A stretch of DNA of 64,000 bases from Nitrososphaerota archaeon (GTDB lineage Archaea; Thermoproteota; Nitrososphaeria; Nitrososphaerales; JACPRH01): contig JAMCPI010000014.1 in the NCBI GenBank assembly GCA_023379805.1, forward strand, positions 1 to 64,000, read 5' to 3'. Made by a program: the position numbers and the translations under genes. Of this stretch, positions 5,636-49,974 are shown piece by piece. The notes under the pieces were generated by a model. The model did no database searches, was not told the origin of the DNA, and worked only from the letters and a program-made list of their open reading frames with translations. Numbering within the stretch: position 1 is the first letter of the stretch; each line of letters begins with the position of its first letter.

Positions 5636-6094
5636 TTACTTGTCCTTGGGGCAGCATTTGCCTTTAGGGATAGGTTGACCGTGTGGACATTTGCGTGGAT
5701 GTTTCATCAGAGTGCAGAGGGCATCCGCGAACTCTTGAGACATGTGATGCTCAATTCCGCAGGCGACCTTCGGATCCACCTCGATACCGAGAGAGTCCGC
5801 CATCATCTTCTCGATTAACCTGCCGTTCCGCACCATCCGCTCACCTATTACGCGTCCCTTCCTGGTTAAAGTCACCCCTTCGCGAGCTAGGTACTTGAGG
5901 TAACCGGATTTCTCCAGCTTCCTCAACATCTGAACAGCGCTCGGCGGCGCAACTCCCAAGTTCTGCGATATTGTAGAAATTTTGACAGGAGACTCACCCA
6001 TTTCCTCAAGCAGCCAGACTGCTTCAAGGTACTCTTCGATATGTTCTGATTCAACCGGCTCTATATACAGAACCCTGCAGCCTGAAAGCTCCAT
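5636..6094 (-). CDS. DtxR/MntR-family metal-dependent transcriptional regulator
   Basis: A 152-residue repressor-type protein. Residues about 15-75 form the winged helix-turn-helix (VKISTISQNLGVAPPSAVQMLRKLE), followed by a dimerisation and metal-binding helix pair containing GIEHHMSQEFADALC, whose His and Glu correspond to the Mn/Fe ligands of the family. The C-terminus (HPRKCPHG.PIP..KCCP) is short and cysteine-rich, and the SH3-like third domain of DtxR/IdeR is missing, as in MntR. With bound Fe or Mn it should bind operators; the palindrome upstream of ftr1 (7089-7106) is the obvious candidate. Its own TATA box (6123-6130) predicts an almost leaderless message from ATG 6094. It lies between the two metal-uptake genes. 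Confidence 0.92.
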   Translation of the reverse strand: MELSGCRVLYIEPVESEHIEEYLEAVWLLEEMGESPVKISTISQNLGVAPPSAVQMLRKLEKSGYLKYLAREGVTLTRKGRVIGERMVRNGRLIEKMMADSLGIEVDPKVACGIEHHMSQEFADALCTLMKHPRKCPHGQPIPKGKCCPKDK

Positions 6095-6122
6095 ATCAAC
6101 CTGTCATTCAGTTCAAGCGGGG

Positions 6123-6130
6123 TCTATAAA
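6123..6130 (-). promoter_or_regulatory. TATA box of the DtxR-family gene
   Basis: TTTATAGA on the minus strand; the predicted transcript start near 6100 leaves only a few nucleotides before ATG 6094. No copy of the ftr1-type palindrome is seen here. Confidence 0.55.
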
Positions 6131-7056
6131 GGGCTTTTCTGTGAAGACGCGGCTTCACTTGCGATCTTTTGGCTATCCTTCACAGACACGAGCGATGTCT
6201 CCGTTGAACGGTATGAGCGAACCAAGTAACCACCTATTACAGCCCAGTACCCAAGGTAAGCTATAACGCGGAGCCATTCAGGGTTACCGTCATACCCCAC
6301 GAGCGCCTTTAATATGGAGCCAACTATACCATTCTCGTGAAAGATACTTGTACTCTCCGCTGGATTAATATCGTAAGCGTGTGCCGCTAAGGGACCAATC
6401 TCTATTCCTGAGTGCTCAGCAGCCTCCATCAACTCATGAACTCCGTAGCCGAAGAGCCCAGCTGAGAAGATAAGCAGAAGTGTGCTAGTATACTTGAAGA
6501 AACGCCGTATATCTAACCGGTATATCCCGCGCATCATCAGAAATGAGAGCCCAATAACTGCTCCAACCCCAACAATCATCCCAACGAGAGTCGCAGCGAA
6601 GTCTCGGACAGCGAAGGCGGTTAGGAACAGGACGGTCTCCAGACCTTCCCGAGCCACCGCCACGAAAGCAAGCACTGTGATACCGTACACATAGCCACGG
6701 GTGACCGTTGTGTTAATCTTTGCCTCAAGCTCACCTCGAATTGACCGTGCATTACGCGTCATCCAGAAAATCATGTAGGTGAGGACAGCAGTCGCCGAAA
6801 TAGAGGCGAGACCCTCGAAGAGTTCCGCAGCAACCCCTTCAAGTCCGCCGTAGATGTACGCAGCAACTCCGCCAGCTACAATACTTGTAGCAACCGCCCC
6901 AACGACACCTAAGAGAAGATGTCTGTTGAGATCCGGTCTACCTATTTTCTTCAGGTAGGCGGCGAGAATCCCGACAATCAAGGCCGCTTCTAACGCTTCT
7001 CTAAAGGTTATCAGTAAAGGAGCTGATGAGTTTACTAGGGTTTCAACCGATATCAT
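6124..7056 (-). CDS. FTR1-family iron permease
   Basis: A 310-residue membrane protein with about 7 transmembrane segments that imports iron, in yeast as Fe(III) together with a ferroxidase and in prokaryotes (EfeU) with periplasmic partners. Both diagnostic iron-binding REXXE motifs are present: REALE at residues 19-23 and REGLE before TVLFLTAF, each in a hydrophobic helix. No EfeO or EfeB partner is nearby. The start is ATG 7056, with a GGAG about 13 nt upstream. Its promoter holds a perfect 8+8 palindrome between the TATA box and the transcript start, so repression by the adjacent DtxR-family protein when metal is plentiful is likely. The stop lies about 30 bp upstream of the regulator start, same strand. 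Confidence 0.93.
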   Translation of the reverse strand: MISVETLVNSSAPLLITFREALEAALIVGILAAYLKKIGRPDLNRHLLLGVVGAVATSIVAGGVAAYIYGGLEGVAAELFEGLASISATAVLTYMIFWMTRNARSIRGELEAKINTTVTRGYVYGITVLAFVAVAREGLETVLFLTAFAVRDFAATLVGMIVGVGAVIGLSFLMMRGIYRLDIRRFFKYTSTLLLIFSAGLFGYGVHELMEAAEHSGIEIGPLAAHAYDINPAESTSIFHENGIVGSILKALVGYDGNPEWLRVIAYLGYWAVIGGYLVRSYRSTETSLVSVKDSQKIASEAASSQKSPL

Positions 7057-7088
7057 TATTCCGATTCAACTCCTTCTTAGCTTCTCCT

Positions 7089-7106
7089 AATTAGGTGAAC
7101 CTAATT
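7089..7106. promoter_or_regulatory. DtxR-type operator of ftr1
   Basis: AATTAGGT-GA-ACCTAATT is a perfect 8-bp inverted repeat with a 2-bp spacer. Its TTAGGT..ACCTAA core matches the arms of the DtxR/IdeR consensus. An extra half-site (CCTAA at 7086-7090) overlaps its left side. It sits between the ftr1 TATA box (7111-7118) and the predicted start of transcription near 7089, an ideal repressor position. Confidence 0.75.
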
Positions 7107-7110
7107 ACCC

Positions 7111-7118
7111 ATATAAAG
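7111..7118 (-). promoter_or_regulatory. TATA box of ftr1
   Basis: CTTTATAT on the minus strand, about 26 bp before the predicted transcript start near 7089, giving a leader of about 33 nt. Confidence 0.55.
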
Positions 7119-7248
7119 ATTACCCAAAACCAACTCAACCACAATAGCTCATCAGCAGCCCAAAAGCTAAAAACAAGCACTCCGCGCATCATAACCACTA
7201 ACAGGCCCAAGACAAGACAGAGAAACCTATCCACCCGTTCAGCCCTGC

Positions 7249-7254
7249 AAAAAA
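7249..7254 (-). terminator. T-run at the end of small unit copy 1
   Basis: Six T on the minus strand followed by GCAGGGCTG. Copy 2 has five T followed by GCAAGGCTG at the same distance (about 177 nt) from its predicted transcript start. Archaeal RNA polymerase terminates at such T-runs, so this probably marks the 3' end. Confidence 0.4.
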
Positions 7255-7290
7255 TCAATCAACCCCTTACAATAAACAAAACTTTAAGCA

Positions 7291-7380
7291 TCAACACGTG
7301 CAACTCCGCCACATTAACGGAGAAAAACACTGGGGAGTAGTCTTGCAGGCCTGCATCATGCATCTCTGCAACTCCTGCAT
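7291..7380 (-). CDS. cysteine-rich mini-protein, copy 1 (29 aa)
   Basis: A 29-codon ORF, ATG 7380 to TGA 7293-7291, with Cys at residues 7, 12, 18, 27 and 29. Aligned without gaps to copy 2 (49144-49248), 17 residues are identical: M1, Q2, L4, Q5, R6, C7, Q10, A11, C12, T14, T15, P16, C18, F19, L22, W24 and C27; K13/R and M23/I are conservative. Seven of these 17 codons differ only at synonymous positions, which favours protein coding. The ATG lies 68 nt after the TATA box (69 in copy 2). Four conserved Cys suggest metal or disulfide binding; I do not recognise the family. It lies downstream of leuS on the same strand, separated by its own promoter. Longer in-frame extension upstream crosses the TATA box and is not preferred. 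Confidence 0.5.
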   Translation of the reverse strand: MQELQRCMMQACKTTPQCFSPLMWRSCTC

Positions 7381-7447
7381 CCAAAGGTAATCTACTTGAT
7401 GCAGATCCGTTAACGTAACAACCGGATTCTTACACGCTTTTCCTCGC

Positions 7448-7496
7448 TTTATATATCCCTCCCTCGGCCAATGGCAGCAGTGGCGCCGGCGCACGA
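7448..7496 (-). promoter_or_regulatory. conserved upstream block and TATA box, small unit copy 1
   Basis: The block 7496-7456 begins TCGTGCGCCGGC and matches copy 2 (49025-49065) at 35 of 41 positions without gaps. TATATAAA at 7455-7448 follows at once. The 5' part of the predicted transcript is not conserved, so the block is probably a regulator site rather than simple recent duplication. An inverted repeat CCTAGAT/ATCTAGG (7502-7508/7521-7527) lies just upstream. Confidence 0.6.
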
Positions 7497-7501
7497 TGCT
7501 A

Positions 7502-7527
7502 CCTAGATAACATGAATCCGATCTAGG
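7502..7527. repeat. inverted repeat between leuS and small unit copy 1
   Basis: Seven-bp perfect arms CCTAGAT and ATCTAGG with a 12-nt spacer. It may be the 3' end structure of leuS or a binding site for the downstream promoter; copy 2 has no equivalent. Confidence 0.4.
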
Positions 7528-7571
7528 CAATAGAAAAACACAAACCAGTTCTAACGATAATCTGTTTTATT

Positions 7572-10496
7572 CTACTCAACGTAGATGGCTGGTCGATATG
7601 GCTTTGATAGGCCAGCCCGTCCCTTCGGATCGTATCTATTCTGATCTTCTTCGCTGTAAACAGAGACCTCTGCGCCAAGTTCACGTTTGAAGAAGTCTTT
7701 GGTTTCCTCTATAAGACTCTGCTCGCCAAGCGTAGTTGCTATTGCGAGCCGCCTGCTCCTTATCTCCGGTGGAACAGTTAAGATGTCTTCAACAGTCTTT
7801 TTAGCGAATGAAGAAACCTCTTTAGCATGTTTCTTCAGCTCTTCATCCTCCATTAATTGCTTCATCAACTGACCGACATTGAGCGAACCGTTCTCAGCCA
7901 TCCGCATAGCAGCCAAGTACACAAGTAGCTTCCAGCCGGCAGCAGTATAATAGACCACTCGTGTCGGCTTTATCTTAGTTACCCGGATAATGTTCAAAGT
8001 GTCCTCCAGCAGGCCTCTGATTAGCTCTTCACCCTCCTCAGCATTCCAATCTATCAACGCGGGATTCGGCTTGGGCCAAGCAGCAGTTGATACAAATTCG
8101 CCGTTCCCCAGCAGCTCCCACATCTCTTCAGAGACGAATGGAGCAAAGGGCGCAACAAGTCTAACCCGCACCTGAGCCACCTGATATATCACGTCAGCTC
8201 GAACCCGCTCCCGACTAATATCATCCGAGCCTGATCGGCTTCGACGCAGATACCATTGAACATCCTGATCCGCCGTGTACACTACAGTTTGAATAGCTTC
8301 TCGAACCCGCAGCTTCTCAATCGATCGCGTAGCCTCCTCAACCAGACCCTGAACCCGGCTGAGTATCCATCTATCCTCGACTTTTAGATCACTCATCTTC
8401 GTACCTAAGCCGTGCTTCTCAGCAGCCCAAGCAACGGAGTCGTAGAGCCGTTCAAGACGCTCCCTGAAGGTTCGTATAAGCCCGAGACTCATGTCAGCAT
8501 CTTGCAGAAGCTCTGCAGTTGCGAGAATCGCCATCCTCAACGGATCAGCACCGTACTGACGCACAGCAGATCTGAGAGGAATAATGTTGCCGAAGGACTT
8601 GGACATCTTCTTCCCCTCCATCAGAACGCTCCCGTTAACCACTATCTGACGAGGCCAATACTGCTCAGGAAAGACAGCAGCATGGTTGAAGATGAAGAAG
8701 GTCAGATGGTTAGGCACCAAGTCTCTCCCCGAGTGCCTACTATCCAGCGGATAGAAGTACTCAAACTCGCACCTCATCTGCTTCAGAACATCCAAGTCTA
8801 GGTTGTTCTTCTCAGCGACCTTCTTCTCGTCACCTAAGCCGAGAAAGATATAGTCAAAAACATCTAGGCCTAGTTGATCAGCCTTGACGCCGAGCTCATT
8901 CACATACTTCGAGACAAGGTAGTACGACATGTAGATCACCGAGTCGGAGAGGCTTTCAATAATCCACTCTGGATCCCAAGGTAAGCGGGTGCCGAGCCCA
9001 GATTTTCGTGCACAGGCCTTCTGCTTCAACCAATTAATCGTGTACTCAAATTCGGTGCGTATATCTTCAGGCAGGAGACTCATCTGATCTAGGCAACGGC
9101 GAGCCAGATCCTTCCACTCACGGTTACTGTAATCGATAAACCACTGATTCTCAAAGATTTTCACAACACACTCGGTTCCGCAGCGGCAGACCACCGGCTT
9201 ATTCATGATCTCATAGCTAATTTTGCCGACGCCGGAGCTCAGCATGTCAGCCTTCACCTTATCTCGAGCCTCTGGAACCGACAGCCCCAGGTAGGCACCG
9301 GTTCCATCAGCCATACTGCCCACATGGAACTCATGCCGGTACAGATCAGCAGTCGCCTCCTCAAGCTTAGGATCGTCTTGGCTTCGGATGCCCATCTTCA
9401 GAATAATCTGCTCAGAAGGAACCCCTTCGTACCCCGCCGAGGCCACGATAACAGGGATCCGGATAGAGCGTATGACCTCAGGTGATAAACCGTATTGCTT
9501 CAACAGATCCGGCTTCGCCTCAAGATCCTTCAGCGCCTGATAGTCATACGGCGCATGAGCGGGAACCGACATAACTACGCCTGTTCCGCCTTTAGGATCT
9601 ACAAATGAGGCGGGGAGAAGCGGTATCTTGGTCTTGGTAACCGGGTTCTCAGCCTCGGCGCCTATGAGCGTTGAGCCCAGTATCTCCTCTTTAACTGTGA
9701 CTTTCATTGAGAGAAATCTGAGCTTTTCAACCACATCTCTGCTTACAACCCATTTTTCTCCATCCACATCAGCCCGTACGTAGGTGGCGTCAGGCCTGAT
9801 CCAGACGTTTGTTACCCCGAACACAGTCTCCGGCCTTAAAGTGGCCGCTGGTAGAACTTGACCGTCAAGCAGGAACTTGATCAGTGTATACTCACCGATC
9901 TCAGGTTCAACATCCCCCAAAGTATCGTGTTGACCCACTGGGCTCTGGTCTTTAGGGCACCACCCTACAGGATGGCTTCCACGGGTGATCAAACCTTTCT
10001 GATAGAGTTTCTCGAACTGCCATCTGATGAAGGCGCTGTATTGCGGATCCACTGTAGTGAACTCCCTGCGCCAATCAATCGAGTAGCCGATCTCCTTCAT
10101 GCCTGCCTTAATCTCTTGATGGAAGTACCTTGCAATCTCAATCGGCTTAGCCATAAGCGGGATAATGTCCTTTGGAACCTTGTAGATGTTGATGAAGGTC
10201 TCGATGAGCTCCTTATCACCGGACTCAAGCCGCTCAGACATTGCCAGTATAGGGGTGCCAGTGTAGTGGAAGGCCATCGGGAACAGAACCTGATTACCCT
10301 GCATCCGCTTATACCGGGCGTAGACATCAGTCAAGGTGTAGGTGCGGCCATGCCCAATATGCTGAGGCGAGTTAGGATACGGGTAGGCTACGGTTAGATA
10401 GAACTTGGGGCGAGCCGGATCCGGATTCGCTTCGAAAAGCTTGGCTTCGCTCCACCGGTGACGCCACTTATCCTCAATCGCACCTAAATCCAACAC
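7572..10496 (-). CDS. leuS: leucyl-tRNA synthetase (archaeal type)
   Basis: A 974-residue class I aminoacyl-tRNA synthetase that charges tRNA-Leu. Seen in order: the HIGH motif as HIGHGR near residue 42-47 after YPYPNSPQ; an inserted editing (CP1) domain at about 170-460 with the conserved TLRPETVFG and VPAHAPYD motifs; a Cys pair (CRCGTEC) in the zinc-type insertion; the KMSKSFGN loop near 650; then the anticodon-binding helical domain and an archaeal C-terminal extension. The length is normal for archaea/eukarya-type LeuRS. The gene is followed on the same strand by small unit copy 1 and is preceded by alaS about 31 bp away, so the two synthetases may be cotranscribed. Confidence 0.97.
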   Translation of the reverse strand: MLDLGAIEDKWRHRWSEAKLFEANPDPARPKFYLTVAYPYPNSPQHIGHGRTYTLTDVYARYKRMQGNQVLFPMAFHYTGTPILAMSERLESGDKELIETFINIYKVPKDIIPLMAKPIEIARYFHQEIKAGMKEIGYSIDWRREFTTVDPQYSAFIRWQFEKLYQKGLITRGSHPVGWCPKDQSPVGQHDTLGDVEPEIGEYTLIKFLLDGQVLPAATLRPETVFGVTNVWIRPDATYVRADVDGEKWVVSRDVVEKLRFLSMKVTVKEEILGSTLIGAEAENPVTKTKIPLLPASFVDPKGGTGVVMSVPAHAPYDYQALKDLEAKPDLLKQYGLSPEVIRSIRIPVIVASAGYEGVPSEQIILKMGIRSQDDPKLEEATADLYRHEFHVGSMADGTGAYLGLSVPEARDKVKADMLSSGVGKISYEIMNKPVVCRCGTECVVKIFENQWFIDYSNREWKDLARRCLDQMSLLPEDIRTEFEYTINWLKQKACARKSGLGTRLPWDPEWIIESLSDSVIYMSYYLVSKYVNELGVKADQLGLDVFDYIFLGLGDEKKVAEKNNLDLDVLKQMRCEFEYFYPLDSRHSGRDLVPNHLTFFIFNHAAVFPEQYWPRQIVVNGSVLMEGKKMSKSFGNIIPLRSAVRQYGADPLRMAILATAELLQDADMSLGLIRTFRERLERLYDSVAWAAEKHGLGTKMSDLKVEDRWILSRVQGLVEEATRSIEKLRVREAIQTVVYTADQDVQWYLRRSRSGSDDISRERVRADVIYQVAQVRVRLVAPFAPFVSEEMWELLGNGEFVSTAAWPKPNPALIDWNAEEGEELIRGLLEDTLNIIRVTKIKPTRVVYYTAAGWKLLVYLAAMRMAENGSLNVGQLMKQLMEDEELKKHAKEVSSFAKKTVEDILTVPPEIRSRRLAIATTLGEQSLIEETKDFFKRELGAEVSVYSEEDQNRYDPKGRAGLSKPYRPAIYVE

Positions 10497-10527
10497 AACG
10501 ACCAGCCCTGCCTGCCTGTCTGCTTAC

Positions 10528-13272
10528 CTACTTCTTAGCTTTGCTTCCCTTGAGCGAGGATGACACTGCACGTTTAGCGGCATCCATTGCTTCTCCAATC
10601 TTCTCAGCGCTGCGGCCGCCACCCTGCCCGAACCTCGGGTCACCGCCGCCTGAGCCGCCTAGAACCTTCGCAATGTCTCGAACTAGCTCACCGGCCTTCA
10701 ACCCTTTCTTTCTAGCCGCTTCACCGCAGAAGACGAACAACCTGACACTTCCGTTGACCGCCGTGAAGCCGCAGTATATCAGGCTGGGATCCGCTTTGAT
10801 TGCTTCTTCACCGACCGTTACGTGATACTCTTCGTCAAGCCCTTCATCAGAAGACATGTACAGCTTCAACCCGTTGATTTCGGTGACACGCTTAGAGATA
10901 TCTTCAATCTCATAGGTGGAGAGCCGTTTGATCAGCTGCCTCTGCCGCTTCTTCAAGTCCTCAGCGGTCTTCTTAATCTCGTAAGTAGCCTTGACCGCCT
11001 TGTCTTGAGGAGCCTCAAGTATGTCGGAGATCTCACTCAGCATGCCCTCTCTTGCCTGAATGTATGAGAGAGCAGGTTCACCTGCAACGAACTCTATCCT
11101 TTCGACCCCGTCCTGAACACGCTCGCTTCTAAGAATCTTGATGAAACCTATATCACCGGTTCTGGAGGTGTGAGTCCCGCCGCAGGCCTCAACGTCCCAG
11201 CCTGAGATATTCAGTATCCTAAGCTCCCTCATCGGCACAACACCTCCTTGATAGAGCCTGAAGCCGTACTTCTGCTCCGCCTGACTCCTCGGAAGTATCT
11301 CCTTAATCACAGGCAAATTCATCAGGATGGCACTGTTAGCCACTGACTCTATCCGATCTAGTTCCTCACGTGTAAGGTGAGCGTAGTGAGTGATGTCCAG
11401 CCTCGCCTTATCGACACCTTTGAAGGCTGAATGTTGCCAGATCCATGATCCCAAGGTCTTCTGGGCCGCCCCGTTCACCAGATGGGTGGCGGTGTGATGC
11501 CGAGTGAGGACGCTGCGTCTATGAGCGTCAACCTTGCACCGGATTGTCTGCCCCTCGTTGAGCTGGGACTTCTTGAGCCGGTGAAGCACTACATTACCGT
11601 ACTTCTCGACATCTTCGACCTCGAAGCCGCCGATGAATCCCAGATCCGGTTCCTGTCCACCTGAGCGCGGGTAGAAGGCGGTTGCGTCTAGAATGATGTA
11701 CTGGTTGTCGAATATTTTCAGAACCTTCGCATTGAACTCGAAGAGATCCTGATCCTCGTAGAAGAGTAGTCGCGTAGGAGATATTCGTTCAACATCGAAC
11801 TTCTGAGGCATCTTCTCTTCACGCTCCATCATGTGGCGCTCGGTGACCTTTGCATAGAAGTCCTGAGGCACCTCTATTGGGAGACCGTGCTTCTTCAGCA
11901 TATCAGGGGTAATCCCCTCCGAGTCATAGAGCTGTATCAGTTCATCTTCACTCGGTTTCTTCTGTGTCTTAGCCATGCTGCCTACGAGTTTGTCTATCCG
12001 CTCCACAGTGTTCCGATACCTTTGCTCCTCAACCTCAAGGATTTTTGCTATTTCGTTTCGACGCTCATCCAGCTCAGGGTACATCGCCATGAGGTAATCG
12101 ATATGCCAGTTAGCAACCTCTTCAAGCGTCAGATTCCAACCGAACTCGTCGAGAAAGCCCAGCGCGCGTCTCAACACCACCCGCAGATTGTAGCCGCCGC
12201 CGACGTTGCTAGGTAACCCTCCGTCCGATATTGCGAAGACCAAGCTTCGTGTGTGATCCGCCACAGCGTACAGCGCCTCAAGTCCAGCGGTCTGCCTATG
12301 CAAATCCTTCTCAGAGATTCCTAGCTCCTTAGCGATCTTGGCCTTCTCCTCCTTCAAATCAGAGATCTCGTCAAGGTTAAGGACACCTGCAAGCCGCGCA
12401 TACCGTAGATAGAACTCTGGATCATACTCGATGTTGCAGCGAGCCATCATCTGCTTCAAAGCGGGGCCGAAGACCGCGTCGTAACTGGTTGGGGTGCCCT
12501 GCGTAATCCAGCTAAAACGCTCTAACCCGGCGCCCATATCAATGACCTTCTCCCTCATCACCCTGTAATCCTCAGGGGTTCCCTCGAACTCGGTGAAAAC
12601 AGAATTGCCTAGCTCAAGACCTCTAACGTTGTACTCGAGGCTGTAGCCGAAGGCACCGTATCCAAGCCAGACGTCCTCGGTGAAAACCACCTCTTCAGGG
12701 GGGATGCCGAAGGGGCCGGTGAGAAGCTCAAAGTCCAAGTCGACGCAACGATCCTTCCAGTAACCCTTCCCCTCATCCGAAATGCTGTGCTGCCCAATCA
12801 TGCAGAAAGAGGAGTAGTGTTTACCGGAGACCCCTACGTTCTGAATATCATTGAAGCGTAGACACATCTGTGGGACGATGAGCGGGTTCGCAGGCATATC
12901 GAAGACAACTTTGCCGCCCTCGATCCTTTGAAAATCAATTATTGAAGCGACTGTGAAGAAGAGATCAGGCCGCCACCGGCACACTACAGGGTAGCGTTTA
13001 ATGCTTGTATGTCCGTTCTTAACAAAGAAACTCTCAACCTGACGCCAAGCATCAATATAGTCGAACCGCCGGTTAGTCGGAGGATCGCCTAGGAACTCGT
13101 AGTGCTGACAAGGAGGCTCAGGACAGACCACTCTATCAGGATCCAGCGTCCAGAAGTAGCGTCCACACTTAACGCACTGTTTTCTAATGAAGCCTTTCTG
13201 CCGGAACAGCTCGACCTCATAGTACCGTTTATGGTCGGAGGAAAACTTGGACTTTAGAGCCGCCTTCATCAT
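10528..13272 (-). CDS. alaS: alanyl-tRNA synthetase (archaeal type)
   Basis: A 914-residue class II synthetase charging tRNA-Ala. The N-terminus (VELFRQKGFIRKQCVKCGRYFW) carries the archaeal zinc-knuckle extension absent from bacterial AlaRS. The catalytic core holds RPDLFFTVASI and the GAGLERFSW motif 3 region. The editing domain has HHTATHL and the CGGTH zinc site, and the C-Ala/DHHA1 end is Gly-rich (GGSGGGDPRFGQGGG). The length fits archaeal AlaRS (about 900). ATG 13272 is doubled (MMKAAL), and either could be used. It lies just upstream of leuS on the same strand. Confidence 0.97.
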   Translation of the reverse strand: MMKAALKSKFSSDHKRYYEVELFRQKGFIRKQCVKCGRYFWTLDPDRVVCPEPPCQHYEFLGDPPTNRRFDYIDAWRQVESFFVKNGHTSIKRYPVVCRWRPDLFFTVASIIDFQRIEGGKVVFDMPANPLIVPQMCLRFNDIQNVGVSGKHYSSFCMIGQHSISDEGKGYWKDRCVDLDFELLTGPFGIPPEEVVFTEDVWLGYGAFGYSLEYNVRGLELGNSVFTEFEGTPEDYRVMREKVIDMGAGLERFSWITQGTPTSYDAVFGPALKQMMARCNIEYDPEFYLRYARLAGVLNLDEISDLKEEKAKIAKELGISEKDLHRQTAGLEALYAVADHTRSLVFAISDGGLPSNVGGGYNLRVVLRRALGFLDEFGWNLTLEEVANWHIDYLMAMYPELDERRNEIAKILEVEEQRYRNTVERIDKLVGSMAKTQKKPSEDELIQLYDSEGITPDMLKKHGLPIEVPQDFYAKVTERHMMEREEKMPQKFDVERISPTRLLFYEDQDLFEFNAKVLKIFDNQYIILDATAFYPRSGGQEPDLGFIGGFEVEDVEKYGNVVLHRLKKSQLNEGQTIRCKVDAHRRSVLTRHHTATHLVNGAAQKTLGSWIWQHSAFKGVDKARLDITHYAHLTREELDRIESVANSAILMNLPVIKEILPRSQAEQKYGFRLYQGGVVPMRELRILNISGWDVEACGGTHTSRTGDIGFIKILRSERVQDGVERIEFVAGEPALSYIQAREGMLSEISDILEAPQDKAVKATYEIKKTAEDLKKRQRQLIKRLSTYEIEDISKRVTEINGLKLYMSSDEGLDEEYHVTVGEEAIKADPSLIYCGFTAVNGSVRLFVFCGEAARKKGLKAGELVRDIAKVLGGSGGGDPRFGQGGGRSAEKIGEAMDAAKRAVSSSLKGSKAKK

Positions 13273-13344
13273 TTACAGACCCGTCTCCTGATGAGGGGTT
13301 AATAACGATGTCTCTCTAACCGCCTAAACACGCACCGATAATAC

Positions 13345-13893
13345 TCATGGGTGCAACGTGTTCTCGAGGCTGGCTCGACACGAGGAGCAGAACTTGCTGC
13401 TCTTCCGATCAGTATCAACTATACTGTTTGAGAAGAACATCACGCAGTCAGGATTTCGATCGTGAGGCAGCCCGAAGACATGCCCTAGCTCGTGAATCGC
13501 CTCCTTTACCACCCTATCTATGTAAAGCACAGTATCAGGCGCTCCGCCGAAATACTCAGGTTTCAGACGATAAAGTGAGATAACCCCAGCTCGAACCTGC
13601 GGATTAGCTAATCCGAAGACGTAGTTTAACTCCGGGACGTAAAGATCAGCGTCAGCGACTCCGAGAAAATAATCTGCTGAAAGAGGCGATTCTAACTGGC
13701 TAGCGATGTTTTGAAGTAGAATCGAGGCGTTGTACTGGCTACGTTTAGAGTCGAAGCAATAGTTGAGAAGAGACCCTGACTCCGGCCCAATGTGGCATGA
13801 AAAGCCTGGGAAGGTTTGTGAAACAGCCTGCTGGATGTTACGCAGGATCAGTCTATCCTTACAGTGAATTGGGAGAAGCAGGATATCCGGCAA
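13345..13893 (-). CDS. amzA: archaemetzincin-type metallopeptidase
   Basis: A 182-residue zinc protease of the archaemetzincin family (M54). The motif is HELGHVFGLPHD...CVM.F followed by C-x2-C (FCSSC) about 20 residues later. The three His and the Glu of the catalytic zinc site are present. The usual Cys just after the third His (HC) is Asp here, so the structural second zinc site keeps only three of its four Cys. Natural substrates of the family are poorly known. The start is TTG 13893 (TTG-CCG-GAT); no ATG is available upstream in frame before the rpl12 promoter region. It is divergent from rpl12. Confidence 0.85.
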   Translation of the reverse strand: MPDILLLPIHCKDRLILRNIQQAVSQTFPGFSCHIGPESGSLLNYCFDSKRSQYNASILLQNIASQLESPLSADYFLGVADADLYVPELNYVFGLANPQVRAGVISLYRLKPEYFGGAPDTVLYIDRVVKEAIHELGHVFGLPHDRNPDCVMFFSNSIVDTDRKSSKFCSSCRASLENTLHP

Positions 13894-42378: not shown

Positions 42379-43206
42379 CTAGATGCGACCGCCTTCGAAT
42401 GTCACCAGATAGAGAAAAGACTGATCATTCCTGAGATCCGGATCAACTGCGTAGTCGTCCACAAAGTCGCCGGTATCGTAAAGAATCAGCCGCCCATTGT
42501 GAACCTCAACCCCTTGAAAGATGTGCGCGCTGTGGCCGAAGAAGACATCAACACCTATATCGGTCACAGCTCGAGCGAACATCTGAAACTCTTCAGTCGG
42601 GAACTCCCGCATATTTGGACCCCAGTGCATAGAGAGGATTACATAGTCGGCTCCAGCAACCCGCATAGACATTACCGACTGCTCCACCGATTTTAACGCC
42701 TGCTCACCTGCATCCACAGGCATGTAGTTGATGCCGGGCTTTGTTTCGGTAGCAGCCCACTCTGGAGGGTGGTCTGCGAACGCCGCGACACCGATTTTTG
42801 TATCTCGTTTTCGCATGATAGCGGGTTTAGAGGCGGCTGCTAGGTTTTGTCCTGCGCCTACGTGCGCTATGCCGTTTTGATTCAGTCTGTTGAGCATGTC
42901 GAGTAGCGCTTCTTCTTGGAAGTCTAGGGAGTGGTTGTTGGCGTTTGATGCGAAGTCGATGTTGGCTGTTTGCAGTGTGAAGGCGGCGTCAGGATCGGCT
43001 CTGAAGTAGAAGACCTTTGGAGTTGCAGTCCATTTACTTCCTTTGTCTGAGATTACGCATTCTAGATTGATGATTCGTATATCTGCCCTTCTGAGTGTGT
43101 CGAGCGTGTTGCCCCAGACGTATCTGTAGCCGTCGAAGTTGAGGACTCTGTTTACTAGTCTGCCAAGCATCACGTCGCCTGCGAAGGCCAGGGTTACTGC
43201 GGTCAT
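42379..43206 (-). CDS. CapA-family metallophosphoesterase-like protein
   Basis: A 275-residue protein of the CapA/poly-gamma-glutamate (PGA_cap) family, a branch of calcineurin-like phosphoesterases. Motifs: FAGDVMLGR at the start (metal-binding GDxM), NLECVIS, SNANNHSLDF (NNH), SMHWGPNMRE (HWG), GHSAHIFQG (GHxH). No signal peptide is seen, so this is probably a cytosolic relative rather than a capsule enzyme; the substrate is unknown. It ends just before the 49-residue gene, which appears cotranscribed. Confidence 0.85.
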   Translation of the reverse strand: MTAVTLAFAGDVMLGRLVNRVLNFDGYRYVWGNTLDTLRRADIRIINLECVISDKGSKWTATPKVFYFRADPDAAFTLQTANIDFASNANNHSLDFQEEALLDMLNRLNQNGIAHVGAGQNLAAASKPAIMRKRDTKIGVAAFADHPPEWAATETKPGINYMPVDAGEQALKSVEQSVMSMRVAGADYVILSMHWGPNMREFPTEEFQMFARAVTDIGVDVFFGHSAHIFQGVEVHNGRLILYDTGDFVDDYAVDPDLRNDQSFLYLVTFEGGRI

Positions 43207-43346
43207 TACATGTTGACTCTGTTAGTTGTATTTAATGTGGTGTACCTATAAAGTGGTGATAAATTATTTGACAAGCTTCGTTATGCGTCTTGTCTATTCT
43301 TCTTCGCCCTGATACGTAAAAGGTTTTTGCAGGCCCATAAATTCCT

Positions 43347-43994
43347 ATGGGCGATTTTGCCAAGAGTTGGCATAGCGACGGCAAGCCTGTATTGTCTAGG
43401 GTGAAGGATCGGGTTTCACCTAACGATCCTTTGAAGCCCAAGATTATAGAGGCTGAAAGGCTTATCAAAGTTCAGATGAGCCACATCGACCAAGCTCTTG
43501 CCAGAATCGCTAGTAGAGACGCGGCTATTTTTCAAAGGGTAGTTTCTTCGCTTCAGAAGAAGGATATTCAACGTGCTGCGCTCTACGCGAATGAACTTTC
43601 AGAGGTTAGGAAGCTCGGGAAACTCGTCACCCAAGCTAAACTTGCTCTTGAGCAGGTGGTTCTGAGGCTAGACACTATTCAGGATATCGGTGATGCAGTA
43701 ACAGTCATTTCGCCGGTTATGTCGGTGGTTAGAAGCGTCGGTTCGGACCTCACCAACATAATGCCTAATGCTCAGGGTGAGATAGGTGAAATCAACAACA
43801 TCCTCAGCGATATTCTTGTCAATGCTGGAAGCCTAAGCGGCGAAAGACAGATCAACACCGAGACAAGCAGCGAAGAGGCTGACAGGATACTGGACGAAGC
43901 CTCATCCCTTGCAGAGGAACGGATGAGAGACCTCTTCCCCGAGGTAGTCAACAAACCGGTACAGCAGAAGCAGCGCGAACCGTTAGACATCTAA
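43347..43994 (+). CDS. cdvB: ESCRT-III/CdvB-like (Snf7 family) protein
   Basis: A 215-residue helical protein of the Snf7 superfamily. The core runs from residues ~25-135: KPKIIEAERLIKVQMSHIDQALARIASRD, then FQRVVSSLQKKDIQRAALYANELSEVRKLGKLVTQAKLALEQVVLRLDTI, and the acidic C-terminal half ends in short segments suited to binding the CdvC/Vps4 ATPase. In TACK archaea these filaments constrict the membrane during division and vesicle budding. CdvA and CdvC are not in the window, so this is a dispersed paralogue. The start is ATG 43347. Confidence 0.88.
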   Translation: MGDFAKSWHSDGKPVLSRVKDRVSPNDPLKPKIIEAERLIKVQMSHIDQALARIASRDAAIFQRVVSSLQKKDIQRAALYANELSEVRKLGKLVTQAKLALEQVVLRLDTIQDIGDAVTVISPVMSVVRSVGSDLTNIMPNAQGEIGEINNILSDILVNAGSLSGERQINTETSSEEADRILDEASSLAEERMRDLFPEVVNKPVQQKQREPLDI

Positions 43995-44102
43995 ACTCAA
44001 GCAGATGGTCTAGCAGAGAAAATAAGCTGTAACAGCAGGTAGGCACTCAGCTGGTTGGCTAGTGAACTTTAAATTGCTAGCCAATGTCGTTTATCCCACA
44101 GC

Positions 44103-44729
44103 ATGAAGATTTTGCCGAGAGAGCACGGGGCTACGGTTATCTGGTTTGTGTCGGTGCTTGCATCTATACTGGTTATTGCCGCTATTCCATCACCTTCGTT
44201 TCTAATTCTTTTTCTCGCGGTGTCAATCGCGGTCTTGTTGTCGGCTGGGCAGCTCACAAGTCATTCTCATACGTTGATTCGTGTTCAGCGTAACCGGTTT
44301 TTTCTGCCGATTCTTTCGAGCAGCTTAACGCTCATTATGCCTTTGGGGGAACTCATTATGCTCGGGGCTTTATCCGGTAGAGTTCTCGCCGCTTGGTTGC
44401 TTCTTTTCACTTATACCGTTGTCAGTGTCTCGCTGATACAGTCGAAGGTTCAAGGCTTCCTTAAAGGAGAAGCAGCGTCCTCGAAACATATTGTTGTTCC
44501 GGGTCTAGTTGTGCTAGCTGGAGAAGGATTATTGTTTGCTTCGGCTGGGATTTTTCATGCCGCCGTTGTTTTTTCGCTCACGCCGCTGCTGGTTATGTGG
44601 ATCTATCTGAGTCGACGCAGGGTGGGAGAGAAGAGCAGTCGGATGAAGGTGATTAAGGGAGTCGGTTTTCAGCAGACAGGTAACATGATTGCGTTTATCA
44701 TAATATTGGCGATAGTCACACGACTTTAG
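44103..44729 (+). CDS. YwiC-like membrane protein
   Basis: A 208-residue polytopic protein with about 6-7 helices. The start MKILPREHGATVIWFVSVLAS is the PREHGA signature of the YwiC-like family, which is found in bacteria and archaea and has no defined biochemical role. TTTAAATT at 44068-44075 predicts transcription near 44097 and a very short leader to ATG 44103. The C-terminal end has a QQTGN motif followed by a final hydrophobic helix. Function unknown. Confidence 0.8.
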   Translation: MKILPREHGATVIWFVSVLASILVIAAIPSPSFLILFLAVSIAVLLSAGQLTSHSHTLIRVQRNRFFLPILSSSLTLIMPLGELIMLGALSGRVLAAWLLLFTYTVVSVSLIQSKVQGFLKGEAASSKHIVVPGLVVLAGEGLLFASAGIFHAAVVFSLTPLLVMWIYLSRRRVGEKSSRMKVIKGVGFQQTGNMIAFIIILAIVTRL

Positions 44730-44799
44730 TTCAGCCTGCAGCACCGATTAATCTGCATGTGTATGGATGTCTTGTCTTGCATCGGTTGAGCTGGATGAT

Positions 44800-46443
44800 T
44801 TAGGCCTCTAGGTTTGTTAGGAATTTTTCGACTCCGTGTTTGCAGTATCTGTAGGAGAGGTATGATAGTACAGTTCCGATTAGGATGCTGATAGGTAGTG
44901 CGATTGTTAGGTCGAATGTGAAGGGCGGTGCGGGTCCTCTGATGCCTCCTGTGGAGATTATGGTTAGCCCGATTGGTACGAAGGTGGCGAGCGCGAATAT
45001 TCCGCCGATAATGAAACCTATTATGAAGCCTTTGAAGGTGATGTATCGGCTTCTTGTGCCGATGGTGAAGTCAGGGTATCTTACGGCTATTCCGAGTCCT
45101 ATGAAGCTTTCAATTTCGACTACAAGCATGCTGGCTATTATTGTTGCTGCGATGATGGGAAGGGGCATCGGGTCGACGGTTTGGAAGATTATGGTTATGG
45201 CCAGAGTGGCTACGATCGAAATTAGCCAGGTTGGGAGAAGCTTGCCTTTGATGAGTGAGCCTGCTTTGATAGGTAGCATGCGGAGGTTGACCACAGCCTT
45301 GCCTTCCTGTCCTATTGTTATTGATGCGAGCATCAGCGTAGTTATGTAGGGTATCATCGCCATTAGAAAGAAGCCTGGTGATCTGCCTGCGTAGTCCGAT
45401 GGTGAGAAAAGGGTGGGGGCTGTCATGGATATTACGAACAATATGGGGATAGCGATGAATCTAGCTAGGTCTCGACGCCTCACAAGAGCCCTGAACTCCT
45501 TCAGCGCGATAGCGGCCTCTTGGGGAGTGAAGGCTAATCCTAGGATTGATGGTGTGCGTGCTGCGTATTTTGTTGATGACTCGATTACGATTGACACAGG
45601 GGATGGAGACCAATATCTTTGACGAAGATAGGAGGCTGAGAAAAAGATAGTGAAGACGAAGATGAATGATAGGGCTGAGAAGGTCGCTACTGCCGGGAGG
45701 TTGAGCTGGATTAGGTTTGTTATCGCAACTGAAGGCCAGACCATTGGAACAAACCACGCGAGCTCTACGCCGCCTACCAAGATGCTTAGCACATTGAATA
45801 GTATGTAGGGGCTGAAGGCCATCTGGATTACCACGAAGAGGATGACTACCAGTACCAGCCTTGATATGATCGCGAACTTGCCGCTTCGCCGGTAGACCGT
45901 AGATGAGACTCTGTTCACTGCGGCTCTCAGGATCTCTATGATTAATGCGCCTAGTATGAGGGCGAGCAGTGAGAAGATTACTGTAACCGGCCAGACGCGG
46001 ATTAAATCAAACTGCAACGCTAAGGGCAGAGCGATGCCGACACCGAATGCCAAGAGAAATGAGTAGGCTGAGACCACTGACACTGTTGAGGCGGCGACAT
46101 ATTCTCGTGGTGAGATTGGAAGCCAGTTGACGGCTTCGCTTGACGATACGCCTGAGCCTTGACCTAGCTCGAAAAGGATGCCGGCCACTATGATGCCTGA
46201 TGTCAGCAGTAATGGTAGTCCGACCAGTGTCTGCCAAGCCAGAGGCTTAACCAAGGTCAGCAGATCTTCGGGGAAGAGCGGCAGTAGAAATTGAAGAAGC
46301 ATGAATGGTGCTGCGAATACGATTGCGTCGATGAGTATCATGATTTTGAGCTGCATGAAACGGCCTAATCCGCCGGGGCGACCGGCTCGGAAGTATGATT
46401 TGAAGAGGATTGAGGAGAGGGCGGAGATGGCTGATAGCCTCAT
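44800..46443 (-). CDS. ABC-2-type transporter permease
   Basis: A 547-residue membrane protein with about 12 predicted helices in two halves, the size of one-polypeptide dimeric export permeases. There is no substrate signature. It overlaps the ATPase gene stop by 4 bp (46440-46443) and is translated with it. The helices follow the ABC-2 exporter pattern with a central cytosolic region (residues ~270-310, RQRYWSPSPVSIVIESSTKYAA). The exported substrate, drug or lipid or peptide, is unknown. Confidence 0.78.
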   Translation of the reverse strand: MRLSAISALSSILFKSYFRAGRPGGLGRFMQLKIMILIDAIVFAAPFMLLQFLLPLFPEDLLTLVKPLAWQTLVGLPLLLTSGIIVAGILFELGQGSGVSSSEAVNWLPISPREYVAASTVSVVSAYSFLLAFGVGIALPLALQFDLIRVWPVTVIFSLLALILGALIIEILRAAVNRVSSTVYRRSGKFAIISRLVLVVILFVVIQMAFSPYILFNVLSILVGGVELAWFVPMVWPSVAITNLIQLNLPAVATFSALSFIFVFTIFFSASYLRQRYWSPSPVSIVIESSTKYAARTPSILGLAFTPQEAAIALKEFRALVRRRDLARFIAIPILFVISMTAPTLFSPSDYAGRSPGFFLMAMIPYITTLMLASITIGQEGKAVVNLRMLPIKAGSLIKGKLLPTWLISIVATLAITIIFQTVDPMPLPIIAATIIASMLVVEIESFIGLGIAVRYPDFTIGTRSRYITFKGFIIGFIIGGIFALATFVPIGLTIISTGGIRGPAPPFTFDLTIALPISILIGTVLSYLSYRYCKHGVEKFLTNLEA

Positions 46444-47204
46444 ATTTTGAGGGCCTCAACGATCTTAGCGGCGTCTTCTCCTCCGGTTAACTTGAGGAAG
46501 ATGTCTTCAAGGTTTGAGCCGGAGAGGCCTGCCTGTGACCTGAGGTCCTGCATTGAGCCTTCCGCTATAACGGTGCCTTCGTTCAGAATCGTTACGTTGC
46601 TGCATATTGCCTCAGCGATTTCAAGCACGTGTGTGCTGAATAGAATGGCGACGCCTTCGTTCGCCAACCGGTTGAGAAGATCCTTCACTATCCTCGCTGA
46701 TCGTGGGTCAAGCCCGTTCAGAGGCTCGTCTAGGATGAGGATTTTCGGTCTATGCAGCAGGGCGGCGGTTATAGCTATCTTCTGCTTCATTCCTTGAGAA
46801 AAACCGCTCATAACAACATTCACGTTTTTCTCCATCTGCAAAGCTCTGATGATCTCTTCGACTCGTTGCTGCCTGACCTTAGGCTCGATTCCGTAGGCGA
46901 CACCGACGAAGTCAAGGTACTCAGCCGCTGTTAGATACTCGTATAGATAGGGTGACTCGGGAACGTAGCCGATTAATTGTCGTGAGACCACAGGTTTCTC
47001 CTCGACATCTAGATCGTAGATTTTGATGTTGCCTGAGTCTGGTTTCAACAGGCCCAGAATCATCTTCATTGTTGTGCTTTTGCCTGAGCCGTTCGGGCCT
47101 AGAAGGCCTTTGATTTCGCCTTCCTTAACGGTTAGGGAAAGGTTCTGCACAGCCTTTACCGGGCCGAAGGATCTGCTTACCGATTCAACCTTGACCGCGT
47201 CCAA
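46440..47204 (-). CDS. ABC exporter ATP-binding protein
   Basis: A 254-residue cytosolic ATPase. Walker A is GPNGSGKST in LLGLLGPNGSGKSTTMKMILG, the Q-loop YVPESPYLYEYL, the signature SGFSQGMKQK (a variant of LSGGQ), Walker B KILILDEPLNGLD and the switch His in FSTHVLEIA. The G..QGMKQK form is common in CcmA/DrrA-like exporters. It is the first gene of the pair with the permease downstream. Confidence 0.92.
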   Translation of the reverse strand: MDAVKVESVSRSFGPVKAVQNLSLTVKEGEIKGLLGPNGSGKSTTMKMILGLLKPDSGNIKIYDLDVEEKPVVSRQLIGYVPESPYLYEYLTAAEYLDFVGVAYGIEPKVRQQRVEEIIRALQMEKNVNVVMSGFSQGMKQKIAITAALLHRPKILILDEPLNGLDPRSARIVKDLLNRLANEGVAILFSTHVLEIAEAICSNVTILNEGTVIAEGSMQDLRSQAGLSGSNLEDIFLKLTGGEDAAKIVEALKI

Positions 47205-47524
47205 GCTGAATCACCTAACCATTAGACGGATTGTTGGTGCAAACCTTTGATTGGGATGGAAGTATTGCAGAGGGATCAACACAGTAATCTTCTACATGTT
47301 ACTATATTTACTGTTCGCATGTTAGGTGCGAGCTCAGAACTCAAGATCATGCTCATCTTTTTGATGCCAAGACGCCGTTGAACGCTTGACGCGCTTAACG
47401 AATTATCTTGATCATCAATTTTCACAAGGGCTAGCCTCTTCACTGCTCGCAGTTAGTAGAAAGCATAATAAACGTAAATAAGGGATGCGGTGAAAAGAAG
47501 GATGTTGGGGCGTAGGTAAGAGAA
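47205..47524. other. intergenic region without a recognised gene
   Basis: 320 bp between the divergent ABC ATPase and the 174-residue gene. I see AT-rich promoter-like sequence (ATAATAAACG.. about 47466) but no ORF with a good start and no inverted repeat worth calling. Confidence 0.5.
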
Positions 47525-48049
47525 ATGGTGCACATTGATACTACGGCTTCGCTTGAATCATTCAGGTGGTTCCTGATCAATAGTACTTGCATGTCGTTCA
47601 TACCGGAGGGGTACCTTAGGGATCCTGAGGTTTTTCCTGAGAAGGAGGGAGATGCTGGATCGATCTATGTGGAGGCGGCTGACAAGGTTACTTTGAAGAA
47701 GATACGGATGATTAACTTCATCAACGCTAAGGATGTGCTCGGCATCATTTACACCTCTAAGAGTGGGAATACGAATTTGAAGTGGCGTCAGACTCGTGAG
47801 AAGACTGGTAGGGTTATTGGTGAGGCGTCAGCTAACTCTCTGGTGAATCTTCTGGCTGCGCGTGTTATTACGAAGGAGTATGCCGACGAGCTGGCTAACA
47901 TCAAGCCTCAGGAGGAAGAGGGTGAGCTGCAGCGGAAGAAGAAGGAGTCTAAAGAGGAGGAGTGGAGTCTTGATGAAGACGACCAAGATTCATCCACTTC
48001 CGAAATTCCGGGGTTGGAGGGTTCTCTTCAAACATCCGACGACGTTTAG
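47525..48049 (+). CDS. unrecognised conserved-looking protein with an acidic C-terminus
   Basis: A 174-residue soluble protein I do not recognise. Residues 1-130 look folded (HIDTTASLESFRWFLINS, IRMINFINAKDVLGIIYTSKSGNTNLKWRQ, EASANSLVNLLAARVITKEYADEL). Residues ~130-174 are low-complexity and acidic (EEEGELQRKKKESKEEEWSLDEDDQDSS), probably disordered. Its last 101 bp overlap the 3' end of the UPF0282 gene on the other strand, and the low-complexity tail lies in this overlap. GTAGG upstream of ATG 47525 is a weak ribosome site. Alternative: an intact gene whose tail is shared by chance extension of the frame. Confidence 0.5.
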   Translation: MVHIDTTASLESFRWFLINSTCMSFIPEGYLRDPEVFPEKEGDAGSIYVEAADKVTLKKIRMINFINAKDVLGIIYTSKSGNTNLKWRQTREKTGRVIGEASANSLVNLLAARVITKEYADELANIKPQEEEGELQRKKKESKEEEWSLDEDDQDSSTSEIPGLEGSLQTSDDV

Positions 48050-48923
48050 CCTCTAGAAGCCTGTTCTCAAGCCCAAGATGCTCCGCGAAGGTGCGGAGGC
48101 GGTTTCCGTTCTTCTCAGCTACTTCAGCTAAGCGGTGAGTCTCTTCGAGGCCCTTCTCGTTTCTAAGTATGTGGTGGTCAAGCAGAGTAAGCGGTATCTT
48201 TTCGGCAATAACTTTTAGATTCTCAAGCCCCTGCGTGAGGGTTTTCTCGTCTATCTGCCAGCCTGCGAGGTAGAGCGGAGGTCCCCCGATGATTAGGGTG
48301 GATGGTTTCTTTGCGAGTATCCGGTTTAGGCTGTGCTCGGACACCGGGCCCTGCACGTCTGGGTAGAAGGCTACTGTTTCGTCTCCTGATGTGATTTCGA
48401 CCCCGATGATGAATCCTAGTTGGCCGCCTTCTTCACCGTGGGCGAGGGGTTCGGTGAAGGTGATTTCGGTTCCTCCTGTACGGTAGGTTTGGGAGTCTGA
48501 GTAGGTTATTGTTGAGGTGAAGTCTGAGGCGATTTTGCTGAAGATGTATCCGCGTTGACGTTGACTTGAGTTGATGTGGCTCCTGTAATCTTTGGCGTAC
48601 ACGGTTTTGCCGCTGTAAATCTTCTCAGCCTCGGCTTTGCTGCTCCAAGTCCATTTGGCTTCTAGGTTGCTCCAAGTAGCGGTGTAATGGTCGAAGTGGT
48701 AGTGGGAGATTGTGACGGCGTCAGCCTTTTCAGCGTAGCGGCGGATCTTCTCCCGAGAGTCCCTGAGAGCTTCGTACTCCAGGGGGTGAGGAGTCAAACC
48801 GAACCTTTGACCCAGAGATACGCCGGCGTCAAGCAGAATCCGGGTGTCCGGGGTCTCAACAAAGACGCAGAGAGACCTCACGCCTAGGGACTCGCTGCAT
48901 AAAGGAGTAAATGTGATCGCCAA
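47949..48923 (-). CDS. UPF0282-family metallo-beta-lactamase-fold hydrolase
   Basis: A 324-residue cytosolic hydrolase with the metallo-beta-lactamase fold. Metal-binding motif: ISHYHFDHYTATW (HxHxDH) near residues 73-78; a further His in EPLAHGEEGGQLG, an Asp in FYPDVQGPV and a late His in LLDHHILRNEKGLEETHRL. The UPF0282 family is archaeal and its substrate is unknown. The last ~34 residues (RRRMFEENPPTPEFRKWMNLG..) reach into the convergent 174-residue gene and look less family-like. The start is at 48923, facing the small unit copy 2 region. Confidence 0.8.
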   Translation of the reverse strand: MAITFTPLCSESLGVRSLCVFVETPDTRILLDAGVSLGQRFGLTPHPLEYEALRDSREKIRRYAEKADAVTISHYHFDHYTATWSNLEAKWTWSSKAEAEKIYSGKTVYAKDYRSHINSSQRQRGYIFSKIASDFTSTITYSDSQTYRTGGTEITFTEPLAHGEEGGQLGFIIGVEITSGDETVAFYPDVQGPVSEHSLNRILAKKPSTLIIGGPPLYLAGWQIDEKTLTQGLENLKVIAEKIPLTLLDHHILRNEKGLEETHRLAEVAEKNGNRLRTFAEHLGLENRLLEAKRRRMFEENPPTPEFRKWMNLGRLHQDSTPPL

Positions 48924-48956
48924 GCCAAGCAGGATGATAGATTAGGAGGTAATAAA

Positions 48957-49052
48957 ATGTGGTGGGCTAACAACCACCCAGCAACTCACCAGCTTATCTT
49001 GAGCATCTGTTTGCTAGTACGCGCTCGTGCGCCGGCACCAGTGCTGCCGTAG
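48957..49052 (+). CDS. possible 31-residue leader-like ORF
   Basis: An ATG at 48957 follows AGGAGGT (48944-48950) by 6 nt, a near-perfect Shine-Dalgarno, and opens MWWANNHPATHQLILSICLL followed by VRARAPAPVLP to TAG 49050-49052. It runs through the first part of the conserved block of small unit copy 2. Copy 1 has no such ORF. It may be chance or a leader peptide. Confidence 0.25.
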   Translation: MWWANNHPATHQLILSICLLVRARAPAPVLP

Positions 49053-49075
49053 TCCGAGGGGGGGAGGTTTAAAAA
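49025..49075 (+). promoter_or_regulatory. conserved upstream block and TATA box, small unit copy 2
   Basis: The block 49025-49065 begins TCGTGCGCCGGC and matches copy 1 at 35 of 41 positions with no gap. TTTAAAAA at 49068-49075 follows at the same offset, giving a predicted start near 49098. Confidence 0.6.
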
Positions 49076-49143
49076 GCATTGAAGGAGTTGCATTGTTCCA
49101 GCTTTTGCTTAACAGGACATGCCTTAGAGGTATTCGCTGCTGG

Positions 49144-49248
49144 ATGCAAGGCTTGCAAAGGTGTGATGATCAGGCTTGCAGGACTACTCCCCTATGTTTT
49201 CCTGTTTTGATTTGGCAGAATTGTATGTGGGGGTTGCTCGGATGTTGA
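49144..49248 (+). CDS. cysteine-rich mini-protein, copy 2 (34 aa)
   Basis: A 34-codon ORF, ATG 49144 to TGA 49246-49248, starting MQGLQRCDDQACRTTPLCF. Cys occur at 7, 12, 18, 27 and 34. Relation to copy 1: 17 of 29 aligned residues identical, with synonymous differences in seven of those codons, and an equal TATA-to-ATG distance (69 versus 68 nt). The last residues (MWGLLGC) differ. No membrane span. Family not recognised; the conserved Cys-x4-Cys-x5-Cys-x8-Cys suggests a metal site. A T-run at 49271-49275 would end the transcript 177 nt after its start. Confidence 0.5.
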   Translation: MQGLQRCDDQACRTTPLCFPVLIWQNCMWGLLGC

Positions 49249-49270
49249 TTTCTGCATTGGATTAATTGGG

Positions 49271-49275
49271 TTTTT
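49271..49275 (+). terminator. T-run at the end of small unit copy 2
   Basis: Five T followed by GCAAGGCTG, matching the copy 1 sequence after its T-run (GCAGGGCTG) and lying at the same distance from the predicted start. Confidence 0.4.
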
Positions 49276-49427
49276 GCAAGGCTGGGTAGCTTTGGTTTGG
49301 TGTTGGATTGGCTTTGTTCGTTTATTAGTTCATCTTTTACGTTGGATTGAGTTAATATGGTTGGTTGGCCAAACTTTAAATGTGGTTAGATTCGGCTGGA
49401 GATTGAGTAAGTAAAGGGGGATTATGG

Positions 49428-49781: not shown

Positions 49782-49974
49782 AGGCAGAGTAGTAGTAGTT
49801 CATCAGTTATCTACTAGTCTGATCGTTTCTGCTGGAGTGATGGGCTTCTCTGTGTTAGCGTAGCGTGTAGCAGGTTGATATTGCGGTGTCCGTAGTTTTT
49901 TATAGTTTAGTTGAGTAGTATTTCATGCAGCGCTCTGTTTGTAGAGGGCTGTGCAGAGATAAAGGAGCAGCGCA

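Follow-up and report, generated by a model that had tools for sequence, protein, structure and literature searches.

Two copies of a repeated element in the window

The window analysed here comprises the first 64,000 bp of contig JAMCPI010000014.1 of an uncultured Nitrososphaerota archaeon from soil/groundwater and harbours two copies of one intergenic element. Copy 1 lies on the minus strand at 7236..7555, as delimited by an all-versus-all blastn of the loci (its homology with the paralogues extends from about -101 to +219, counted from box A), and the family profile matches it at 7290-7466 (-) with 104 bits. Read in its own direction, it begins with a GC-rich upstream promoter block (7456..7496, -) containing the near-palindrome GTGCGCCGGCGCCAC and a G-rich stretch before box A, a block which was aligned in 28-77 copies. 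Box A itself (TATATAAA) occupies 7448..7455 (-), and a GAAA follows 13 nt from its start (7439..7442, -). The conserved body (7314..7426, -) is defined by alignment, and transcription would start near its beginning; the locus-specific 3' part (7229..7314, -) is of type A (...GCAGGGCTG).

Copy 2 is found on the plus strand at 49025..49294 (profile match 49058-49233, 79 bits, and synteny). Its promoter block (GTGCGCCGGCACCAG...) spans 49025..49065 (+), box A (TTTAAAAA) lies at 49068..49075 (+) and is followed by GAAG in place of GAAA, and the body, again placed by alignment, covers 49097..49209 (+). A direct check confirmed that the blocks at 7496-7456 (-) and 49025-49065 (+) are identical in 35 of 41 positions and that box A comes directly after the block at both sites, as the first-pass annotation had reported. 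By synteny, the orthologous loci in a congeneric genome are C1:4523 for copy 1 and C23:23808 for copy 2.

The genes flanking copy 1 encode a probable LeuRS, an aminoacyl-tRNA synthetase of class I (7572-10496, -), and an FTR1-family iron permease (6124-7056, -). About 130 bp downstream of copy 2 an Arcadin-1 gene is located (PF18653, E 1.5e-20; 49428-49781, +); in other archaea Arcadin-1 is a partner of the archaeal actin crenactin. The window also contains a tRNA-Thr(CGT) of about 92 nt at 3239-3330 (+), which is probably intron-bearing.

The two sites had been interpreted as genes for a small cysteine-rich protein, or for a dual-function RNA. Each contains a mini-ORF: one of 29 aa in copy 1 (7291..7380, -) and one of 34 aa in copy 2 (49144..49248, +). 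The observations behind this proposal are correct. Both peptides have 17 identical residues, seven of them encoded by different codons, and they have Cys 7, 12, 18 and 27 in common, with an extra Cys at 29 or 34. In this pair the differences are distributed 4/9/14 over the codon positions, which resembles coding selection, yet the pattern vanishes over 75 copies and is therefore a small-sample effect (three-base phase in position entropy absent, 1.02/0.95/0.98 by phase). The ATG is present in only six of 77 copies, and many copies contain in-frame stops, e.g. L019 with ...LQG*VM*ACKTT, while the stop pattern ...TTSQ*F recurs in many near relatives. Across the family the frame is thus broken where the nucleotides are conserved, and we found no frame on either strand that is open in all copies, nor any relative of the peptide in searches of Pfam and PDB.

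The element codes for no conserved protein, and a cysteine-rich protein as the function of the family is refuted; the probability left to it is practically nil. Both mini-ORFs, being unconserved in other copies, were judged not to be genes, and they illustrate how look-alike mini-ORFs at two sites can arise as a by-product of a repeated noncoding element. Start codon and frame had been generalised from two copies. The same is true for the T-run that was thought to end the transcript, as most copies have only 3-5 T there, and the supposedly unconserved leader between TATA and ORF belongs, in most other copies, to the conserved body. What stands from the first-pass annotation is a real, shared and new small element, similar to a transcription unit, with a conserved promoter block.

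Family size, promoter sequence and RNA structure

The resemblance of the two sites exceeds chance. In a blastn search against its own genome (G000; 2.34 Mb, 17 contigs) a 252-bp stretch finds 22 places, with E 2e-68 for the best paralogue, and profile R1, built from 28 copies, identifies full-length copies in both genomes compared, 40 of them here and 37 in the congener G001, whose contigs are the records JACPRH01 (Thaumarchaeota archaeon NC_groundwater_674). The comparison is one of two draft genomes, one of them 87% complete, with contig ends at several copies. A sequence-only profile, R2, built from 75 copies, gives the 40 copies of G000 at least 71 bits and adds C11:3, which is cut off at a contig end, the diverged C2:94700 (E 2e-6) and the doubtful C2:66714. 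The elements are about 330-470 bp long, with two 3' types among the copies and mosaic types among the dispersed repeats.

Searching the order in 100 and then 300 genomes, the best score elsewhere was at most 26 bits with R1 and 22.6 bits with R2. The weak partial matches were scattered over the model and judged to be due to chance, as were matches of viral contigs to an 18-mer; no relative was found in the plasmid and phage records searched. The genomes of the order searched thus yielded no credible homologue beyond the genus JACPRH01, in which the element occurs about 40 times per genome. A family of Nitrososphaeria that does not oxidise ammonia takes its name from JACPRH01 (PMC10833072).

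A box-A-like octamer (at least 6/8) is present in all 76 scorable copies, in which 19 different octamers are used, and in 68 of the 76 a GAAA starts 13 nt after the start of box A. The block before box A has 63% G+C, occurs in the types GTGCGCCGGC, TGCACGCACGC and ACTATTACGC and has a G-rich stretch at its end; in some groups the conserved unit extends about 165-245 bp upstream of box A. These alignments show that the element carries a strongly conserved putative promoter of archaeal type. Going by archaeal promoter geometry, transcription would start near +25..+30.

The genes flanking the 40 copies (upstream, downstream) are oriented -- in 13 cases, -+ in 11, ++ in ten and +- in four. The occurrence of all orientations excludes both a leader and a 3' UTR, and a cis-regulatory leader or riboswitch was rejected as a candidate. 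The neighbours have no function in common: 71 neighbouring proteins match 156 Pfam families, none of which is found in more than two of them. Two class I and two class II matches to aminoacyl-tRNA-synthetase families are among these 71 neighbours, a number that may exceed chance. A diverged copy (G000 C14:116901) is adjoined by a gene for a 498-aa protein (L113:3-1496) with a weak, below-cut-off CdvA-like coiled-coil match, which is conserved in G001, and another copy by what is apparently a fragment of an IS240-type DDE transposase (L026:1636-2115).

A structured RNA, which the dual-function proposal would imply, finds no support. Among the Rfam 15 covariance models only a tRNA matched in the window, and 19 copy loci gave no match at E<=1. 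For the structure search RNAalifold was applied to each type, fold z-scores were computed for either strand, and named helices were compared with shuffle and slide controls. Compared with dinucleotide shuffles the fold energy has a mean z of -0.13 for +28..+225 and of -0.55 for the core (+28..+140), and in the best-looking helices two-sided pair changes number 11, against 11.0 in shuffles. The hairpin CUUGCAAUGCUU/AAGCAUUG is convincing in single copies and was discarded, as excess covariation is absent. Mutual information over all copies recovers only the split into subfamilies.

Fixed positions, concerted evolution and strand asymmetry

By means of neighbouring proteins about 31 of the 40 loci could be paired with loci in G001, some of these pairs being based on one flank only, with short stretches compared. 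Within the pairs the three parts of the element behave differently. The promoter block is no more similar to the orthologous locus than to a random copy (0.50 vs 0.50) and the body scarcely so (0.64 vs 0.60), whereas the 3' part keeps its locus identity (0.65 for orthologous vs 0.47 for non-orthologous copies). The best paralogue within the genome is closer than the orthologue for the promoter in 28 of 28 loci and for the body in 28 of 30. Most copies are diverged (50-70%), and the promoter spacing is nonetheless kept. The positions of the element are thus shown, within this synteny comparison, to be fixed between the two species, while its 5' two thirds are homogenised within each genome; judged from these identities this is concerted evolution, with the tract ending near +140. 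Moreover, flanks are swapped at elements between the genomes (A12_350503/A9_59732 vs B47_18021/B19_5197, and A9_5740 vs B3_33212/B8_56586), from which it follows that copies recombine with each other.

The copies are also spaced much more evenly than random placement would give. Of the 29 within-contig gaps of G000 the shortest measures 12.3 kb and the longest 232 kb, the mode being 23-36 kb, and all 12 of G001 lie between 15 and 54 kb. For the minimum gaps of 12.3 kb (G000) and 15.0 kb (G001) random placement gives P ~1.5e-4 in each genome, two tests which are not independent since most loci are common to both. In G000 47% of the gaps fall at 20-40 kb, where 24% would be expected (P 0.003). 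Owing to a few long gaps, their coefficient of variation does not stand out. The tRNA genes used as a control (25 found) do not follow an even-spacing pattern (P 0.95). Divergent neighbours are separated by shorter gaps (16-53 kb) than convergent ones (31-232 kb; P 0.005, exploratory). Even spacing could also stem from selection against nearby repeats.

When every locus is turned to the direction of its element, a strand asymmetry becomes apparent. On a large scale a plateau begins at about -6 kb and continues up to the element; in both genomes the signal is over by +1.5-2 kb. Just upstream of the promoter the skews are near zero; downstream they jump, regardless of the direction of the next gene, to maxima at +150..+250 (G-C up to 0.5, T-A up to 0.4). 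At -5..-0.3 kb, 35 of 38 loci of G000 and 27 of 30 of G001 have a positive summed skew, as do 39 of 39 and 31 of 33, respectively, at +0.3..+1.5 kb; the corresponding numbers for the distant comparison at -9.5..-7 kb are 20 of 35 and 16 of 25. A weak skew of the same sign persists beyond 5 kb, and larger domains may therefore account for part of the asymmetry.

Third codon positions shift within each gene orientation separately. At fourfold sites, as the mean of both gene orientations, the share of A declines from 0.24 to 0.19 (to 0.15 at +0.3..1 kb) and that of C from 0.22 to 0.19 (0.14-0.16) in both genomes, and G and T increase in the domain, also in both. Such a shift cannot come from coding bias. 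The pattern is of the C->T and A->G type, as would be expected if the sense strand were exposed in single-stranded form. Transcription from box A can account for the peak at +0.3..1.5 kb. It cannot explain the upstream plateau, since a transcript running in the opposite direction would expose the other strand and since ordinary genes, in the far bins, have no G>C and T>A skew at third positions on their own coding strand.

In the window the asymmetry is visible by eye round both copies. Based on the 1-kb skew profile and the family average, the domain of copy 1 was placed at 5800..13500 (-; C>G and mostly A>T on the plus strand) and that of copy 2 at 43000..50600 (+; G>C and T>A), where the asymmetry is wider (~32-57 kb). 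Around copy 2 it is about 25 kb wide (32000-58000), far above the family average, and in the stretch separating the two divergent copies, near 26-32 kb, the skew changes sign in a manner that looks like an origin-type switch. The element as a bidirectional replication origin was rejected, because the skew has the same sign on either side of it and no switch occurs.

Interpretation and comparison with known systems

A multicopy gene for a trans-acting noncoding RNA (~100-200 nt, with little structure and high dosage) would explain the conserved promoter, the skew peak just downstream of the start and the homogenisation of promoter and body, and it suits the genes on both strands beyond the element; the skew would then be a by-product of very heavy transcription. 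Signals of fold and covariation are, however, absent, the asymmetry extends some 6 kb upstream of the promoter, the coding strand of ordinary genes lacks a G>C, T>A skew at third positions, and an RNA gene family does not require even spacing, so that we regard this explanation as rather unlikely. The dispersed repeats with their mosaic types, the exchange of flanks and the DDE transposase beside one copy may also point to an old non-autonomous mobile element of MITE type, spaced by target immunity and homogenised by recombination. Yet such an element would have to hold positions conserved between species and to keep its promoter spacing in mostly diverged copies; terminal repeats and target duplications were not seen by eye in the alignments, two flank searches found no empty site, and plasmid and phage records contain no relative. 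We consider this origin improbable.

Equally improbable, in our opinion, is an ordinary dispersed repeat whose even spacing arises merely because deletions or inversions between close repeats are lethal. The copies do recombine, and the closer spacing of divergent than of convergent pairs (an exploratory result) agrees with it, but it leaves unexplained both the excess of gaps at 20-40 kb and the oriented domain of asymmetry.

Our preferred reading, which we put forward tentatively and at a little under an even chance, is that the element is a fixed, evenly spaced, noncoding and directional chromosome landmark at which the sense strand would be exposed repeatedly, by an inferred mechanism. With somewhat more reserve we think it possible that the copies represent a hitherto unknown kind of archaeal chromosome element: about 40 promoter-bearing sites, fixed and evenly spaced, that would act as polar hotspots where strands open and recombine, or where forks undergo programmed processing. 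They would partition the chromosome into units of about 25-50 kb, and each would leave a directional mutational imprint of 7-8 kb. Accepting the landmark for the moment, a short noncoding transcript from box A would open the next 1-2 kb downstream on the non-template (sense) strand. The element would at the same time be a polar point of recombination or fork processing, where the strand ending 5' is resected or left unreplicated, and the sense strand would consequently be single-stranded for several kilobases upstream.

Two models can be envisaged for this. In one, 5'-to-3' processing of one-sided ends at the element would expose the sense strand upstream and feed the invasion of one copy by a strand of another; in the other, forks arriving from upstream would stall in a polar manner and expose the template of the lagging strand. 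Both agree with the gene conversion and the rearrangements at elements, and if such ends invaded other copies, conversion as well as the flank-swapping rearrangements would be explained. Resection of a two-ended break predicts the opposite skew downstream; its absence counts against the landmark, and a one-sided process must therefore be assumed. Even spacing would reflect a role on the scale of the chromosome, namely in replication restart, segregation or nucleoid domains. Provisionally we favour a directional landmark that serves recombination or fork processing and is accompanied by a short transcript.

Little is known about the organisation, segregation and repair of Nitrososphaeria chromosomes. 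Here one genome-wide set of sites, defined by sequence, joins promoter, even spacing, fixed position, concerted evolution and a signature of strand exposure. Should these sites prove to be landmarks of recombination or replication, archaeal chromosome organisation becomes testable by mapping alone.

Among known systems, MatP/matS, SlmA/SBS and Noc/NBS are chromosome-organising sites of bacteria with tens of dispersed copies. The element is similar in having tens of copies along the chromosome and a near-palindromic motif in its block; matS, SBS and NBS are, however, short motifs bound by proteins and lack a promoter, a body and an asymmetry domain, whereas the present element is archaeal and has all three. 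Like REP/REPIN and MITE sequences it is a dispersed intergenic noncoding repeat; unlike them it has syntenic positions, even spacing and a conserved promoter, and neither terminal inverted repeats were noticed nor is there a linked transposase family. The homogenisation recalls the polyploid archaeon Haloferax volcanii (PMC8223754), in which gene conversion acts between chromosome copies, whereas here it acts between paralogous loci within one genome.

The skew jumps at multiple origins (N-domains) and the strand asymmetry of mitochondria are comparable in their local GC and TA skew and in the A->G and C->T bias of the exposed strand, but the lack of a sign change at the present element argues against a simple bidirectional origin. 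A further possible resemblance is that to Chi, a polar site at which single-stranded DNA of one strand, decaying over kilobases, is expected on the 5' side together with gene conversion. The upstream asymmetry, of the type left by single-stranded DNA, and the concerted evolution would fit such a site; a downstream component is present, too. We know of no Chi-like site in archaea. Chi is an octamer with hundreds of copies, whereas the present element has about 40 copies of some 400 bp with a promoter. What suggests a chromosome landmark of an unrecognised kind is the patch of strand asymmetry, several kilobases long, in which each of the evenly set copies lies.
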